From Microbacterium sp. AK009 (GTDB taxonomy: Bacteria; Actinomycetota; Actinomycetes; Actinomycetales; Microbacteriaceae), in assembly GCF_013410955.1 (NCBI RefSeq), contig NZ_JACCCG010000001.1, positions 417,605 through 481,604 of the forward strand: a stretch of 64,000 nucleotides of DNA. Reading direction: 5' to 3'. Every line of letters begins with the position of its first letter. Within the stretch, counting starts at the first letter, position 1. The notes beneath the pieces are model-generated. The model was not told the DNA's origin and did no database searches. It worked only from the letters and a program-made list of their open reading frames with translations. A program made the translations under genes and the position numbers. This document shows, piece by piece, positions 4,829 through 29,045 of this stretch.

Positions 4829-6118
4829 ATGAGCGTCTTCACTCGCTCGCGCAAGCGCACCGTCCTCGGTGCCGTCGCGCTCGCAGGCGCCAGCGCCCTC
4901 GTCCTCGCCGGATGTTCCGGCGGCGGCGGCGACACCGGTGGTGGCGACAGCGCAGAGCCGTCGGCCGCGGCCCCCGGCGAAGAACTCGCCCTCAAGATCG
5001 GCACCGCGCTGCCGCAGACCGGCAACCTCGCCTTCCTCGGCCCGCCGGAAGAAGCCGGTGTGGGCTATGCCGCGTCGCAGATCAACGAGGTCTCCGACGA
5101 GACTGGTCTCTCGATCGACGTCGTGTACGGCGACTCGGGCGACACCGACAACAAGGCGTACGAGACCGAGATCCCCCGCCTCCTCGGCGAGGATGTCTCG
5201 GCCATCATCGGCGCCGCCTCGTCGGGCACCTCGCTGCAGTTCATCGACCAGGTCGTGGGAGCGGGCGTCATCCAGTTCTCGCCGGCCAACACCTCCGACG
5301 CGTTCACCACCTACGACGACAACGGGCTCTACTTCCGCACCGCGCCGTCGGACGTGCTGCAGGGCGAGGTGCTCGGCAACCTCATCGCCGAGGACGGCAA
5401 CCAGACGCTCGGCATGATCGTCCTGAACGACTCCTACGGCACCGGCCTCGCCGGGTACGTGACGGAGGCGTTCGAGGCGGCCGGCGGCGAGGTCGTGGCC
5501 CAGCCGACGTACAACACCGGTGACACGAACTTCGACGCGCAGATCTCCGAGGTGCTCGCCGCCGACCCCGACGCGATCGCCCTGATCACGTTCGAAGAGG
5601 TCACGACGATCCTCCCGGGTCTGCTCGGCTCGTTCCCGGCCGACAAGCTGTACTTCGTCGACGGCAACCTGTCCGACTTCAGCGAGGAGCTCGAGCCCGG
5701 TGCCCTCACCGGCGCCAAGGGCACCCTGCCCGGCCTGTCCATCGACTCGATCGGTGACTTCACCGCGTCGCTCGACGAGTGGGTCGCGGCCGAGGGACTC
5801 CCCGAGCTCACCGAGTACAGCTACGCGGCCGAGTCGTTCGACGCGGTCGTCCTGCTGGCGCTCGCGTCGCTCGCGGCGGGTTCGACCGAGCCGGCTGACA
5901 TCGCCGAGAACCTCATCACCGTGTCCGGTGGCGAGGGCGAGGGCGAGAAGTGCACCAGCTACGCGGAGTGCGCCGACATCATCCTCGGTGGCGGCACGGC
6001 CGACTACGACGGCATCTCGGGTCCGATCACGTTCGACGAGGTCGGCGACCCGACCGAGGCGTCGATCGGCATCTACCAGTACGGCGAGGACAACACCTAC
6101 TCGGCGTACGAGGGCTGA
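4829..6118 (+). CDS. livK: ABC transporter substrate-binding lipoprotein, branched-chain amino-acid type
   Basis: 429-residue periplasmic-binding-protein type 1 lipoprotein. The signal peptide ends in a lipobox (ALVLAGC, Cys29), followed by a Gly/Ser/Glu linker. The mature part shows the two-lobed Leu/Ile/Val-binding fold (LKIGTALPQTGNLAFLGPPE; VYGDSGDTDN; IIGAASSGTS; FEEVTTILPGLLGSF). It should capture substrate at the outer face for the LivHMGF membrane complex encoded convergently downstream. The ATG has a strong SD (AAGGAG). A strong hairpin follows the stop. Substrate specificity within the family (amino acids, urea, amides) cannot be read from sequence. Confidence 0.9.
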   Translation: MSVFTRSRKRTVLGAVALAGASALVLAGCSGGGGDTGGGDSAEPSAAAPGEELALKIGTALPQTGNLAFLGPPEEAGVGYAASQINEVSDETGLSIDVVYGDSGDTDNKAYETEIPRLLGEDVSAIIGAASSGTSLQFIDQVVGAGVIQFSPANTSDAFTTYDDNGLYFRTAPSDVLQGEVLGNLIAEDGNQTLGMIVLNDSYGTGLAGYVTEAFEAAGGEVVAQPTYNTGDTNFDAQISEVLAADPDAIALITFEEVTTILPGLLGSFPADKLYFVDGNLSDFSEELEPGALTGAKGTLPGLSIDSIGDFTASLDEWVAAEGLPELTEYSYAAESFDAVVLLALASLAAGSTEPADIAENLITVSGGEGEGEKCTSYAECADIILGGGTADYDGISGPITFDEVGDPTEASIGIYQYGEDNTYSAYEG

Positions 6119-24104: not shown

Positions 24105-24535
24105 GCCGCACGCCATGGGTGCCGCCCGCGCGCTTCGCGCGCCCCGCATCTCGCCTTCGTGAGGATTTTTGCTCTTCGCGCGGATCGGAGAGCCCCTTCC
24201 GGTCCGCGTGAGCGCGAATCTCTTCGTGAACGCGGGGAAGCGGTGCGGCCCGCGCCGCGCGCGCTTCGCGCGCCCCGCATCTCGCCTTCATGAGGCTTTT
24301 CGGTCTTCACGCGGATCGGAGAGCCCCTTCCGGTCCGCGTGAGCGCGAATCTCTTCGTGAACGCGGGAAAGCGGTCCGGCCCGCGCCGCGCGCGCCGCGC
24401 GCCCACGCTTCTCGCCTACATGAGGATCTTCGGTCTTCACGCGGAGCGGAGAGCCCCTTCCGCGCCGCGTGAGCGCGGATTCCCGCGTGAGCGCGGGGAG
24501 GGAAGCGCGAACGCGGGGAGAAGCCGCCCCACTCT
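24105..24535. repeat. Three tandem copies of a 131-bp intergenic repeat
   Basis: The unit containing CCCCGCATCTCGCC, TGAGG, TCTTC, a hairpin CGCGGATCGG...CCGGTCCGCG, and GTGAGCGCGAATCTCTTCGTG recurs three times. The TGAGG anchors are at 24160, 24291 and 24421 (131 and 130 bases apart). Units 1 and 2 are nearly identical; unit 3 is more diverged. The region between the glycosyltransferase and clpP genes (about 530 bases) holds no convincing gene; the open frames across it are repeats of one another. Confidence 0.85.
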
Positions 24536-24603
24536 GCGCTGAGCCGATCTGCCCAGGGCGGCGCGGGCGGCCGGGCCCGCGGCATCCGTCGCACGATGAG
24601 TGC

Positions 24604-25233
24604 ATGTCAGACACTCCCCGCCCTCCGGCGTTCGGTCCCGAGACCCGACGCGAACTGTTCCACCACCGGGTGCTCGTGCTCGACGGTGCGCTCGACGACG
24701 ACAACGGCACGCTGCTCACCACGCAGCTGCTCACCCTCGCGGCCGAGGATGAGGCCGCCGACATCGCCCTGTGGATCCACTCTCCCGGCGGATCGGTGCC
24801 GGCCATGCTCGCGATCCGCGACGTGATGCGGCTGATCCCCAATGACGTCGCCACCCTCGCCCTCGGCATGGCCGCCAGCGCCGGGCAGTTCCTGCTCTCG
24901 GCCGGGACGAAGGGCAAGCGCCGCGCCCTCCCGCATGCGCGGGTGCTGATGCACCAGGGTTCGGCGGGCATCGGCGGGTCGGCGGTCGAGGTGGAGATGC
25001 AGGCCGACGACCTCCGCCACACGCGCGACACCGTCCTCGCACTTATCGCCGACGACACCGGGCAGCCCGTGGCGCGGGTCTTCGACGACTCGCTCCACGA
25101 CCGCTGGTACACCGCCGCCGAGGCGCAGGCCTACGGCTTCATCGACGGGATCGTCGACGGCTTCGACCAGGTCGTGCCGCGCCGCCGGCGGCCGGCCGGT
25201 CTCAGCGTCAGCGCATCGGAGGTGGCGGCGTGA
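24604..25233 (+). CDS. clpP: ClpP-like serine protease subunit with intact catalytic triad
   Basis: 209 residues of ClpP fold. The catalytic triad is complete: Ser92 in GMAASAG, His117 in LMHQG, Asp166 in LHDRW, with the canonical Ser-His (25) and His-Asp (49) spacings. SPGGSV forms the oxyanion-side loop. The C-terminal tail is basic (PRRRRPAG). The ATG at 24604 was chosen because upstream codons lie in the tandem repeat. It is followed with a GTGA overlap by a second ClpP paralogue. No clpX or clpC is nearby, so this is probably an accessory ClpP locus rather than the housekeeping clpP1P2. Confidence 0.9.
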   Translation: MSDTPRPPAFGPETRRELFHHRVLVLDGALDDDNGTLLTTQLLTLAAEDEAADIALWIHSPGGSVPAMLAIRDVMRLIPNDVATLALGMAASAGQFLLSAGTKGKRRALPHARVLMHQGSAGIGGSAVEVEMQADDLRHTRDTVLALIADDTGQPVARVFDDSLHDRWYTAAEAQAYGFIDGIVDGFDQVVPRRRRPAGLSVSASEVAA

Positions 25234-25817
25234 GCGGGTACACGATCCCGAACGTGGTGGCGCAGCATCCGCGGGGAGATCGCATCATGGATGTCTACTC
25301 GCACCTTCTCGCAGAACGCGTGGTCTACCTCGGCACCGCCATCGACGCGGGCGTCGCGAACGCCCTCATCGCCCAGCTGCTGCACCTGGACGCCGACAGC
25401 CCGGAGCGCGACATCCAGCTCTACATCAACTGCGAGGGCGGCGACCCCGCGGCGATGCTCGCGATCTACGACACGATGCAGCACGTGCGGCCGGATGTCG
25501 CGACGACCGTCGTCGGGCAGGCGATCGGCGTCGGGGCGGTGCTGCTGGCCACCGGCGCCGCCGGGAAGCGGGCTGTGCTCCCGCACGCGCGCGTCGTGCT
25601 GCATCAGCCTGCCGGTCAGGGTCGCGGCGCGATCCCCGACTTGATCCTCCAGGCCGACGAGCTCGTGCGGGTGCGCGGTGAAGTCGAGGAGATCCTCGCG
25701 CGGCACACCGGTGTCGATGCGGCGAAACTCCGCGTCGACACCGACCGCGACCGTGTCTTCACCGCTGCCGCGGCCGTGGACTACGGCCTGGCCGACACGG
25801 TCCTCGAGCGGGCGTAG
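25230..25817 (+). CDS. ClpP paralogue lacking the catalytic serine (ClpR-like)
   Basis: 195 residues, closely ClpP-like end to end (MDVYSHLLAERVVYLGTAID, VANALIAQLLHLDADSPERD, LYINCEGG, AGKRAVLPHARVVLHQPAG, DTDRDRVFTAAAAVDYGLAD). His125 and Asp174 are kept at canonical spacing, but the nucleophile position 25 residues before the His is Gly100 (GQAIGVGA where ClpP has GQAASMGA). It should therefore be proteolytically dead, as in the ClpR subunits of cyanobacteria and plastids. The GTG overlaps the preceding clpP by four bases, so the two are probably made in fixed ratio and may form a mixed tetradecamer. Confidence 0.88.
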   Translation: MSGYTIPNVVAQHPRGDRIMDVYSHLLAERVVYLGTAIDAGVANALIAQLLHLDADSPERDIQLYINCEGGDPAAMLAIYDTMQHVRPDVATTVVGQAIGVGAVLLATGAAGKRAVLPHARVVLHQPAGQGRGAIPDLILQADELVRVRGEVEEILARHTGVDAAKLRVDTDRDRVFTAAAAVDYGLADTVLERA

Positions 25818-25828
25818 CCGCCGCGGGT

Positions 25829-26018
25829 CCTCAACTCCTGCATTTCGGGTCGTCGGGCACCGGATTGCGGTCGCTGAGCCACGCCCGGCGCCGGAATGCA
25901 GGAGTTAGGGACAGGCCCGCCCTCGCACTCACCTGCGCAACTCCTCTCATTCGCCTCGCGCAGCCCGCGTTTCCAGCCGATCGGCGCCCCCCGCCCCCGA
26001 ATCTGAGGAGTTATGCAG
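25829..26018. repeat. Two consecutive imperfect inverted repeats with AACTCCT arms
   Basis: Element A pairs TCAACTCCTGCATTTC (about 25831-25846) with GGAATGCAGGAGTTAGG (25893-25909). Element B pairs GCAACTCCTCTCATTCG (25937-25953) with CGAATCTGAGGAGTTATGC (25999-26017). They lie between the clpP pair and the convergent MBL gene and may serve as terminators. Confidence 0.7.
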
Positions 26019-26727
26019 ACGCCGCCGCCCGCACCGCCGCCACCGCATCGGCGGGCCGGCCGCGCCAGGGCGCGCCGTGGCCGGGAAGGATCCACTCCAC
26101 GTCCAGCGCGGCGAGCCGGTCGAGCGAGGCGAGGGCCTCGGCCGGCTCATCGGTGAAGGGGGCGGGCTGCGGTCCGACCTCGCCGGTGAGCACCGACCGT
26201 GTCGTGAGGGCGTCACCGACGAACGCCGCCCGCACCGCGGGAACATACACCGCGACGCTCCCGGGGGAGTGGCCCGGCAGCGCGACGATCCGCGGATCGC
26301 CGGGAAGGGGAAGCACCTGGCCGTCGACGATCTCGACGACCTCGGTGAGGTGCCGGGTACGCGCCCCGCCCTTGCGCGCGGCGTAGAGGAAGAAGCCGAC
26401 GAGGGCGCCGAGGCGCTTCCGACCCATCGCCGTCGGCGGCTTCGGGCCGCCCTTCGCCCGCTCCGCGTCGGCAGCGTGCACGTACACGGGCACACCGTGC
26501 TCGCGCCGCAGGCGCTCGGCGAAACCGAGGTGATCGCTGTCCCCGTGGGTGAGGATGACCCCGCGGATGTCGCTGAGGCCGCGTCCCATCGCGCCAAGCT
26601 CGCGCAGCAGGTCGCGCCAGTGCCCGGGGAGTCCGGCGTCGATCAGGGTGATCCCGTCGGCGGTCTCGACGAGGTAGGCCGCGACGATGTCGTTGCCGAT
26701 GCGGCGGAGCTGGGGGGCGAGTCGCAT
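26011..26727 (-). CDS. MBL-fold metallo-hydrolase
   Basis: 238 residues with the metallo-beta-lactamase fold: metal motif THGDSDHLGF (the HXHXDH equivalent with Gly-Asp in the middle), LPGHSPGSVAVYV (third metal His), FVGDAL (bridging Asp) and PGHGAPW (last His). The N-terminus VAAYLVETADGITLIDAGLPG is typical of glyoxalase-II/quorum-quenching-like branches. The ATG at 26727 has AGAGAAG upstream. It is divergent from a TetR regulator with shared palindromes. Substrate unknown. Confidence 0.88.
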   Translation of the reverse strand: MRLAPQLRRIGNDIVAAYLVETADGITLIDAGLPGHWRDLLRELGAMGRGLSDIRGVILTHGDSDHLGFAERLRREHGVPVYVHAADAERAKGGPKPPTAMGRKRLGALVGFFLYAARKGGARTRHLTEVVEIVDGQVLPLPGDPRIVALPGHSPGSVAVYVPAVRAAFVGDALTTRSVLTGEVGPQPAPFTDEPAEALASLDRLAALDVEWILPGHGAPWRGRPADAVAAVRAAASA

Positions 26728-26750
26728 TGCCGTCTTCTCTCTAGGTGGAT

Positions 26751-26783
26751 TACCATAGCTACGGTACATAGCCTTCATGGCTA
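26751..26783. promoter_or_regulatory. Operator palindromes between MBL hydrolase and TetR genes
   Basis: TACCATAGCTACGGTA (26751-26766, one mismatched pair) and TAGCC, 5 bases, GGCTA (26769-26783, perfect) lie in the 92-base divergent gap. They are likely TetR binding sites overlapping both promoters. Confidence 0.65.
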
Positions 26784-26819
26784 ACGTCAATAGCTGTCCG
26801 ATATTCCCCGGAGGCCGCG

Positions 26820-27329
26820 ATGCCCACGCCCGAGCGCACCACCCTCCCCGCGATCGTCGCCTCGGCGCGGGAACTACTCGAGCAGAGCGGGGCCGCGGGG
26901 GTGACCATGCAGGCCGTGGCCGAACGCGTCGGCGTGCGCGCGCCCTCCCTGTACAAGCGAGTCCGCGACCGGGACGAACTCCTCCGCCTCGTGGCCGAGG
27001 ACGCGGCATCCGATCTCTCCCACCGCTTCGCCGCCACCGGCGGAACCGTCACTGAGCTCGCCCACGCGTACCGCGCCTTCGCCCATGCGAATCCCAAGAG
27101 CTTCCGCTTGCTGCTCGACTCCGATGCGGCGGCGGGGGCGTTCCGCGACGTCGCCGGCCCCATCCTCGATGCGACGAAGAGCCTCGAGGCGGCCCGCCTC
27201 GTCACGGCGTGGGCGACGGGCTTCCTCACGATGGAGCTCGCCGGCGCGTTCCGCCTGGGCGGTGACCTCGACGAGGCCTACGCCTTCGGGCTCGACACCA
27301 TCGTCGCCGGGCTCGACCGGGCGGCCTAG
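26820..27329 (+). CDS. TetR-family regulator with WHG-type C-terminus
   Basis: 169 residues. The HTH is at about 8-55 (AIVASARELLEQSGAAGVTM, VAERVGVRAPSLYKRVRDRD). The C-terminal ligand domain (YRAFAHANPKSFRLLLDSDA, VTAWATGFLTMELAGAFRLG) fits the WHG family. SD GGAGG sits seven bases before the ATG. Divergent placement and shared palindromes suggest that it controls the MBL hydrolase. The 3' end overlaps the LigD-like gene by four bases. Confidence 0.88.
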   Translation: MPTPERTTLPAIVASARELLEQSGAAGVTMQAVAERVGVRAPSLYKRVRDRDELLRLVAEDAASDLSHRFAATGGTVTELAHAYRAFAHANPKSFRLLLDSDAAAGAFRDVAGPILDATKSLEAARLVTAWATGFLTMELAGAFRLGGDLDEAYAFGLDTIVAGLDRAA

Positions 27330-28564
27330 CGCTCGGCCTTCGGCCAGACCTTCCCCGCCCAGGGGTCGTAGTCGGCGACGAGGTCTTCCTGCGGGGGTCG
27401 CTCGCCCTCGGCGACGTGCTGGAGGTTCACCCGCACCCGGTACCAGAGGGAGGATGACCCGCGCATGCCGTCGATCATGACGTCGGCGGGATGCAGCTGC
27501 GCCGCCACCCCGGAGTGATGCGCCTTCCAGGTCTCGAGCGCCTCGAGCGCCTCAGGCTTCGTCTTCGTGCGGGCGACCTCGATGAGCGGCATCGTCGACT
27601 GCCGACGCCCCGAGCCGTCGCCGCCCCGCGGCGGCTTCTCGGCCGGCCCGAGCTCATCGGCGAGCCGGAGCAGTCCGTCGAGCGACCCGGCGGCGTCGTC
27701 GATGCCGGCATGCGGATCGCCGATCTCGGCGTACCGGGTGAGCATCGTGGGCACCGTGAAGGCCTCGGGACGGGCCGTGCGCACCTCGCCCCACGACAGC
27801 GGGGCCGACACGCGGGCGTCGGGCCGAGGCCTCACCGAGTACGCCGAGGCGACGGTGCGGTCCTTGGCGTTCTGGTTGAAGTCGACGAAGACGCTCTCGC
27901 CGCGCTCCTCCTTCCACCACCGCGCCGTCGCGAGGCCGGGTGCGCGGTTCTCGACCTCGCGCGCGAGGGTCTCGGCGGCGAGGCGCACCTGCTTGTAGTC
28001 CCACTCTGGGGCGATGCGGATGAGGATGTGCAGGCCCCGCGATCCGCTCGTCTTCGGCCATCCCGCGAGCCCGACGTCGTCGAGCACCTCGCGGGCGACG
28101 AGGGCGACGTCCACGATCTGCGACCACTCGACGCCGGGCATCGGGTCGAGGTCGATCCGCAGCTCATCGGGGTGGTCGAGGTCTTCGGCGCGCACCGGGT
28201 GGGGGTTCAAGTCGAGGCATCCGAGGTTCACGACCCACGCGAGCCCGGCCGCGTTGCGGATGACGGCCTCCTCCGCCGACGTGCCCGACGCATAGTGCAG
28301 CGTGGCGGTGTCGATGAAGGCCGGGTGGTTCTCGGGCACGCGCTTCTGGAAGAACGGCTCGGCGTCGATGCCGCGGGGGAAGCGCTTGAGCACCATCGGG
28401 CGGCCGCCCGCGCCGCGGAGTGCGCCGTCGGCGACGGTGAGGTAGTACTCGACGAGGTCGAGCTTGGTGATGCCGGGCTCGGGGAAGACGACCTTGTCGG
28501 GGCTGGATATCCGCACCTCCTCGCCGTCGACGTCGAGGATCGCGGGCGGTGTCTTCGCGGCCAT
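27326..28564 (-). CDS. Stand-alone LigD-type polymerase domain (archaeo-eukaryotic primase fold)
   Basis: 412 residues matching the polymerase module of bacterial NHEJ ligase D (SPDKVVFPEPGITKLDLVEYY, PMVLKRFPRGIDAEPFFQKR, IDLDPMPGVEW with the metal-binding Asp-X-Asp, KTSGSRGLHI, TARWWKEERG, SAYSVRPRPDARVSAPLSW). The ligase and phosphoesterase domains are absent. Such proteins synthesise short fills or primers at DNA ends. The C-terminal 110 residues (VMIDGMRGSSSLWYRVRVNL) are an extra module. ATG 28564 is preferred: a TACGGT box ends seven bases upstream. No ku gene is adjacent. Confidence 0.9.
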   Translation of the reverse strand: MAAKTPPAILDVDGEEVRISSPDKVVFPEPGITKLDLVEYYLTVADGALRGAGGRPMVLKRFPRGIDAEPFFQKRVPENHPAFIDTATLHYASGTSAEEAVIRNAAGLAWVVNLGCLDLNPHPVRAEDLDHPDELRIDLDPMPGVEWSQIVDVALVAREVLDDVGLAGWPKTSGSRGLHILIRIAPEWDYKQVRLAAETLAREVENRAPGLATARWWKEERGESVFVDFNQNAKDRTVASAYSVRPRPDARVSAPLSWGEVRTARPEAFTVPTMLTRYAEIGDPHAGIDDAAGSLDGLLRLADELGPAEKPPRGGDGSGRRQSTMPLIEVARTKTKPEALEALETWKAHHSGVAAQLHPADVMIDGMRGSSSLWYRVRVNLQHVAEGERPPQEDLVADYDPWAGKVWPKAER

Positions 28565-28571
28565 GCGGCCC

Positions 28572-28577
28572 ACCGTA
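28572..28577 (-). promoter_or_regulatory. -10 box TACGGT of a probable leaderless transcript
   Basis: Read on the minus strand, TACGGT is followed by seven bases and the ATG at 28564. Confidence 0.45.
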
Positions 28578-28589
28578 CTCGCGCGCGGG

Positions 28590-28892
28590 TCAGGCGGCGA
28601 GGGCGAACGCGCCGCGGACGCTCGTGCTACGCACGCTCTGGACGCTCCGCAGATCGTCGGCGACGCCGAGCGTCAAGTCGATGAGCGTGGTGTCGAGGGC
28701 GCCGGCGATGGCGGCGATCATCTCGCTCGAGGGCTCCTTGCGGCCGCGCTCGACCTCCGAGAGATACTGCGGCGACACCCCCGCACGGTGGGCGGTGTCG
28801 GTGAGGCGCTCGCCGCGCTCGTGGCGCAGGCGCCGCAGGCGCTCGCCGAGGGCATCGCGCCACAGAGGTTCGGGCGGGAGATGGTCGCTCAT
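28590..28892 (-). CDS. XRE-family HTH regulator
   Basis: 100 residues. The helix-turn-helix occupies about 16-72 (GERLRRLRHERGERLTDTAH, AGVSPQYLSEVERGRKEPSS). The short C-terminal tail follows IDLTLGVADDLRS. It is a single-domain DNA-binding protein; the target is unknown. ATG 28892 lies six bases after TACCCT on the same strand, so the message is probably leaderless. It precedes the LigD-like gene on the same strand by 25 bases. Confidence 0.88.
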   Translation of the reverse strand: MSDHLPPEPLWRDALGERLRRLRHERGERLTDTAHRAGVSPQYLSEVERGRKEPSSEMIAAIAGALDTTLIDLTLGVADDLRSVQSVRSTSVRGAFALAA

Positions 28893-28904: not shown

Positions 28905-29045
28905 GAGAGCGGATGCCGCGCTGCGCCACGCGTTCTGCTCACAGCAGAACGTCTCGCCCGGCGAGCCCGGCCGGGCCCGCTCTGCCTCGCCTGGCTCGCC
29001 TGTCCGTGGCTGCCGCCCTTGAGCCGGTGGCCGCGGGCACCGGCT

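Follow-up and report, generated by a model that had tools for sequence, protein, structure and literature searches.

The closest described counterpart of the locus presented here is the ClpP3P4 protease of Streptomyces, which three reports describe as a back-up expressed upon failure of the housekeeping ClpP1P2 (PMC9765437, PMC12607617, PMC7142297). According to the review PMC9775585, the PopR site of S. lividans reads TCTGCC-3N-GGCGAATCTGCC-3N-GGCAGA; the same source describes two alanines at the C terminus as a signal for degradation by ClpP1P2. The SsrA tag of E. coli ends in YALAA (PMC7142297). In ClpP1P2 of Streptomyces, as reported in PMC9765437, the variant ClpP2-S131A is fully active and ClpP1-S113A abolishes activity, with ClpX, ClpC1, and ClpC2 docking on ClpP2 only. 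In M. tuberculosis, PMC4416901 states that the chaperones need the ClpP2 face and that ClpX-driven degradation is hardly slowed when either ring is inactivated, so catalysis by one ring is no fixed rule of ClpP1P2.

The clpP3–clpP4 Gene Pair

The window, that is, the whole 64,000-nucleotide stretch of Microbacterium sp. AK009 DNA that was analyzed, carries two adjacent genes for ClpP paralogues on the plus strand: a clpP3-like gene (24604..25233, encoding P0001, 209 residues) and a clpP4-like gene with a GTG start (25230..25817, encoding P0002, 195 residues). Their four-base overlap, GTGA (25230–25233), had been noted in the original prediction and is confirmed by the coordinates and open reading frames. 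Both proteins match the Pfam family PF00574 over its full length, with 173.6 bits for P0001 and 206.0 bits for P0002. The residues assigned originally to the two active sites also agree with the letters of the alignment. P0001, the predicted catalytic subunit, contains Ser92 (codon 24877..24879, plus strand), His117, and Asp166, whereas in P0002 Gly100 (codon GGC, 25527..25529, plus strand) occupies the position of the nucleophile, leaving a Gly-His-Asp arrangement, so that the Ser-His-Asp triad is not present in both subunits. His125, Asp174, the N-terminal hairpin, and Tyr65 are all retained in P0002.

A Shine-Dalgarno-like GGAGGTG (25218..25224, plus strand) lies within the end of clpP3, upstream of the clpP4 start, a position that suggests translational coupling of the two genes. 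The C terminus of the ClpP3-like protein, SASEVAA, was considered as a degron and rejected: an AA end occurs in just 11 of 81 sequences (the window included), and in the window these letters overlap the ribosome-binding site of clpP4.

The genome contains four ClpP matches. The other two are clpP1 and clpP2, both with Ser-His-Asp, located beside clpX on another contig (C4), where the search proposed in the original prediction found them; the pair in the window is not the sole clpP locus and is separate from the housekeeping one, as in ClpP3P4-PopR systems. Clp_N matches, as in ATPases of the ClpA/B/C type, are present in two further genes of the genome. Genome context and conservation thus uphold the view that the pair is accessory to the housekeeping Clp system and includes one dead subunit type; what that first interpretation missed is that the system is of the known ClpP3P4-PopR kind, with a PopR-like gene 2.8 kb downstream and an operator upstream, and that the catalytic loss recurs throughout the class.

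The PopR-like Regulator and Its Putative Operators

The popR-like gene (28590..28892, minus strand) encodes P0003, a helix-turn-helix protein of 100 residues, counted from ATG, with the C terminus AFALAA. Against the NCBIfam ClgR model it scores 65 bits, with a model cut-off of 170. Another regulator encoded in the genome, which shares 45% identity with P0003, reaches 102 bits; the latter is consequently the better candidate for ClgR, and P0003 appears to be a ClgR-like paralogue, as PopR is. Since the score of P0003 is under the ClgR cut-off, its putative identity as PopR rests on similarity, location, and the operator. Of 80 named loci, 75 have a relative of P0003 within the stretch analyzed. 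The five loci without a PopR-like match comprise three on contigs that stop 0.9 kb or less past the pair (L222, L237, L245) and two from Kribbella (L231, L240); in these two, the 10.6-kb stretch has no PopR-like gene, and ClpP4 is Ser-His-Asp in both. With the window included, 73 of 77 regulator matches end in AA. The clpP4–popR gap in the window (25818–28589) measures 2.8 kb and holds other open reading frames; in many relatives the popR-like gene is convergent and no more than ~0.6 kb past the pair. In one locus (L191, ~5633–5922), the PopR-like match is in two pieces, suggesting a frameshift.

A PopR-type operator (24533..24562, plus strand), consisting of the adjacent 15-mers TCTGCGCTGAGCCGA and TCTGCCCAGGGCGGC, ends 41 nt before the start codon of clpP3. 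Operators were scored by their match, out of 12, to the S. lividans PopR site, and were regarded as tandem when both boxes reached at least 8/12. The operator in the window is degenerate, with scores of 9 (counted by eye) and 10. A tandem operator was found in 202 of 228 distinct upstream regions, compared with 8 of 2280 mononucleotide shuffles, which preserve base composition alone, and 185 of the 202 are positioned 40–44 nt from the start. Single boxes of at least 10/12 occur in 197 of 240 loci (not made distinct, and with L248 left out) versus ~1.6% of shuffles. Upstream of the clpP3 operator, a tandem repeat of 131 nt, in 2.9 copies (24123–24499), stops ~33 nt before it.

A second site, the inverted repeat TCTGCTGTGAGCAGA (28934..28948, minus strand), is located 41 nt upstream of popR and is a candidate for a PopR autoregulatory site. 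Within 150 nt upstream of popR, boxes of at least 10/12 are present in 105 of 242 distinct regions versus 45 of 4840 shuffles, at a variable distance. An orphan or new accessory system had also been considered, and this idea was dropped once the regulator and operator turned up; as far as sequence can tell, the pair in the window is a ClpP3P4-PopR system.

Conservation of the Pair and of Gly100

The accessory pair is found in 77 of the 149 genomes of the genus that were sampled (this genome counted), and all 77 were read; relatives of P0002 in the genus are those of ~67% identity or more, compared with 44–48% for the housekeeping genes. At the position of the nucleophile, the second subunit has Gly in 70 pairs, Ser in five, and Ala in two; its His is replaced in two pairs (by Asp in L027 and by Asn in L034). 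For the first subunit, Ser-His-Asp was read in 76 pairs, the remaining one being cut in the alignment. Because Gly is common to so many accessory pairs of the genus, a sequencing error as the origin of Gly100 was discarded.

The closest named relatives of P0002, with 91–93% identity, are from Microbacterium. At E ≤ 1e-54, relatives are present in 42 of 299 genomes of the family (22 of 85 genera) and, among the matches listed, in at least 146 of 394 genomes of the class (at least 51 of 137 genera), a class-wide figure that includes some housekeeping ClpP2 from deep lineages. The genes clpP3 and clpP4 are spaced within 160 nt in 290 of 296 distinct cases. One genome of the same genus (G025) has seven ClpP-like matches, the best of them at E 3.1e-48, and so has no close relative of P0002. 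Plasmid mobility was considered as well, through a tblastn search of PLSDB, in which copies of the pair were located on records from Streptomyces fungicidicus, Prescottella equi, Tsukamurella tyrosinosolvens, and Embleya. One of these records, the 386-kb Tsukamurella 'plasmid 10' (L320, NZ_LR134452.1), also has obgE and proB, and for this reason may be a chromosomal piece with a plasmid label.

Loss of the Triad in ClpP4 but Not in ClpP3

Among 246 distinct PopR-linked ClpP4 sequences, drawn from searches with P0002 and hence richest in its near relatives, Ser was lost in 181, another 25 had kept Ser but were missing His or Asp, and the triad was intact in 40. In the ClpP3 partners of the same 246 pairs, Ser-His-Asp was present in 245, with one residue unreadable in the other. 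This set, counted as distinct sequences since some genomes had been taken twice, consists of adjacent pairs with a PopR-like match (245 if duplicates are removed before filtering); it was used because the more distant rows with an intact triad include some housekeeping ClpP2s from deep lineages (e.g., G447, G450, G456, G513, and G529), at places that the ClpP2 search lists as well. Without the PopR filter, the triad was lost in 242 and intact in 54 of 296 distinct ClpP4s, and the ClpP3s comprised 294 intact and 2 unreadable ones. The loci of the class-wide search alone, taken from some of the matches listed, contributed 88 distinct ClpP4s, 56 with the triad lost and 32 with it intact. As 40 of 246 ClpP4s (32 of 88 class-wide) are intact, the system does not depend on triad loss.

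The substitutes in ClpP4 are diverse: Gly, Ala, Glu, Trp, Phe, or Asp takes the place of Ser, and Gly, Asp, Asn, or Gln that of His. The replacement of His by Gly was seen on the S. fungicidicus record (L319) and in genomes of one family code (f26), which are presumably kin. Housekeeping ClpP2 of the class was Ser-His-Asp in all 50 sequences read, which represent 50 of the 94 places listed, in 98 genomes, and combine the 30 best matches to the ClpP2 of this genome with 20 chosen ones that include genomes with a dead ClpP4. By its residues, ClpP4 is a recurrently inactivated subunit.

Fold, Pocket, and Probable Docking Side

The model of P0002 aligns with a ClpP2 chain of M. tuberculosis (4u0g_A) with TM scores of 0.93/0.92, and that of P0001 with a ClpP1 chain (4u0g_H) with scores of 0.82 by query length and 0.98 by target length. 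By sequence, the best solved match of P0001 is again M. tuberculosis ClpP1, and that of P0002 is Thermus ClpP (6hwm), not ClpP2. The P0002 model includes an N-terminal hairpin (strands 8–13 and 16–21), whereas the P0001 model is without one, and Arg18 of this hairpin is found in 244 of 246 ClpP4s.

The pocket was read at the positions mutated in the Streptomyces work, which precede the nucleophile by 37, 35, and 15 residues. In ClpP4, the first of them is mostly Gln, Asn, or Ser, the second is Tyr in 241 of 246 sequences, and the third is His, Tyr, or Phe in 245 of 246. The Gln63 and His85 of P0002 make its pocket polar or His-containing at two of the three positions, unlike the classical hydrophobic pocket. 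In the ClpP3 partners of Ser-less ClpP4s, the usual residues are Ala or Ser at the first position, Trp at the second (168/181), and Leu at the third (139/181). With intact ClpP4s the ClpP3 pocket is mixed, and with ClpP4s lacking His or Asp its second position is Tyr in 23 of 25; this comparison of partners points to a ClpP3 pocket altered mainly where ClpP4 is without Ser. At the first position, P0001 has Ala55 and P0002 has Gln63, where the ADEP-binding ClpP1 of S. hawaiiensis has Tyr76; this is at most a hint that the pair may share the ADEP insensitivity of ClpP3P4-PopR systems. Fold, hairpin, and pocket, taken together, suggest that the docking side is probably ClpP4 and the cutting side ClpP3. 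The loss of Ser from ClpP4 would extend a division of labor already present in ClpP1P2.

Proposed Mechanism

With the gene pair, the operator, the PopR-like gene, the triad loss confined to ClpP4, and the docking features of ClpP4 all evident from sequence, we consider it likely that the locus encodes a ClpP3P4-PopR back-up protease with an asymmetric barrel, in which ClpP3 cuts and a dead ClpP4 docks. By analogy with Streptomyces, PopR would be a short-lived activator with an ssrA-like C terminus, destroyed by the housekeeping ClpP1P2. When ClpP1P2 fails or is saturated, PopR would build up, bind the tandem operator, and turn on clpP3–clpP4. The two products would then form a two-ring barrel resembling ClpP1P2, a composition modeled on Streptomyces and M. 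tuberculosis, with all proteolytic sites supplied by the ClpP3 ring. The ClpP4 ring, presumably dead here, would use its axial hairpins and the Tyr65 pocket to dock an AAA+ ATPase, ClpX or ClpC, and would hand the substrate on.

An unlikely arrangement is one in which ClpP3 and ClpP4 alternate in each heptamer, so that active sites are diluted by the inactive subunit in the two rings alike. Such a ring is described for Synechococcus ClpP3/R, with the order R-P3-R-P3-R-P3-R and thus three ClpP3 and four ClpR subunits (PMC4673316). However, the folds of P0001 and P0002 are nearest to M. tuberculosis ClpP1 and ClpP2, which make separate heptameric rings, and this likeness favors one dead ring over mixed rings; the axial hairpin, predicted in the P0002 model only, would also suit a ring with one docking face. 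More doubtful still is a pairing of ClpP4 with the housekeeping ClpP1 or ClpP2 as well, by which it would replace active rings under stress. The ClpP2-like fold of ClpP4 would agree with this, as does the pairing of S. hawaiiensis ClpP-ADEP with ClpP2 recorded in PMC12607617, but clpP4 travels with clpP3 (290 of 296), an observation that would still be compatible with a second partner. The asymmetric ClpP3–ClpP4 barrel remains the preferred reading.

Constraint and the Reshaped Loop

That ClpP4 is a decaying gene, its triad lost through relaxed constraint and without function, is very improbable: many unlike lesions, some with His or Asp gone besides Ser, could be read in this way, but the median dN/dS of ClpP4 (~0.06; 12 pairs of hand-picked close relatives, compared by a simple counting method in which silent sites may be saturated) lies below that of ClpP3 (0.125), His125 and Asp174 are found in 177 and 164, respectively, of the 181 Ser-less ClpP4s, and the docking features are retained. 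The median column conservation in these 181 sequences is 84%.

The loop ahead of the active site shifts along with Ser, with a tendency from SPGGS to CEGGD. Glu69 is present in 145 of 181 Ser-less ClpP4s versus 4 of 40 intact ones, and Asp72 in 150 of 181 versus 8 of 40; a Pro directly after the nucleophile site occurs in 55 of 181, with none listed among the 40 intact sequences. In ClpP, the loop before the active site lines the oxyanion hole and the substrate cleft, and the whole site of ClpP4 thus appears to be reshaped.

Timing of the Losses

In a quick tree of 128 representatives, calculated with the triad letters masked and with SH-aLRT support only, in which 55 of 126 inner branches are open, there are at least 12 changes between the intact and lost states, and the letter of the nucleophile changes 25 times. 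A single clade was rejected by the AU test both for all losses (p 1.4e-69) and for the Ser losses (p 2.8e-5, 91 rows), in tests that covered 91 of 129 tree rows, including roughly one in three Ala/Gly rows, and in which the groups had been labeled by the trait itself. The tree rows nearest to P0002, in a tree built without ClpR rows, are actinobacterial ClpP4s. The ancestor was probably intact, since the earliest branches of the tree are. Ten intact Ser-His-Asp ClpP4s (L059, L063, L077, L078, L081, L218, L223, L224, L231, and L240) have the remodeled C-x-G-G-D loop; as they share this loop with the Ser-less proteins, Ser may have been regained in them, or else retained.

Significance

The system itself is known, and the repeated, one-sided catalytic loss in ClpP4 appears to be new here, with a prior mention possible: a literature search, with Viala 2000 and 2002 and Gominet 2011 outside its coverage, returned no statement of an actinomycete ClpP4 without a triad residue. 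The question of why Clp proteases with two rings hold on to two unlike ones finds a natural experiment in these losses. The serine of Streptomyces ClpP2 is dispensable in vitro, and the equivalent site was dropped repeatedly in the paralogous back-up system, with no such loss in any ClpP3 partner read, nor in the 50 housekeeping ClpP2s. A split into a cutting and a docking ring is testable through the dead and intact ClpP4s of close relatives. The losses also bring a warning for compounds directed at ClpP, which may encounter a back-up core that has only half the active sites of an ordinary one.

Comparison with Known Systems

The locus resembles the ClpP3P4-PopR system of S. lividans, as known from its published description rather than from its sequence, in the order clpP3–clpP4, the tandem operator, the PopR-like gene with a double-Ala end, and the separate clpP1P2. 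The S. fungicidicus record has the same order of two clpP genes and a convergent helix-turn-helix gene; its ClpP4, however, keeps Ser and Asp and has Gly for the catalytic His, unlike the Gly100 of the window. With ClpP1P2 of M. tuberculosis and Streptomyces the pair shares two unlike subunits, one of ClpP1 type and one of ClpP2 type. A division of labor is published for these proteases, which are reported to have Ser-His-Asp in both subunits, unlike the pair in the window. The ClpP-ADEP of S. hawaiiensis is likewise described as an extra ClpP able to replace a housekeeping subunit, but it is a ClpP1-like factor for resistance that is encoded close to the ADEP genes and builds an active core together with ClpP2.

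The ClpR proteins of cyanobacteria, plastids, and apicoplasts are non-catalytic ClpP homologues with an active partner (PMC7966870), and P0002, through Gly100, is similarly predicted to be a ClpP homologue without a working triad. It differs from ClpR in its actinomycete origin, in the adjacent gene of its partner, in a ClpP4 family that mostly keeps His and Asp, and in being ClpP2-like. We can speculate, at about even chances, that actinomycete ClpP4 is a counterpart of ClpR outside the photosynthetic lineages that evolved several times inside a single back-up protease, with the docking ring repeatedly freed from catalysis and the partner ring never, with the retained His-Asp and the C-E-G-G-D loop of Ser-less lineages serving a conformational or substrate-passing role, and with a few species perhaps having reacquired the nucleophile.
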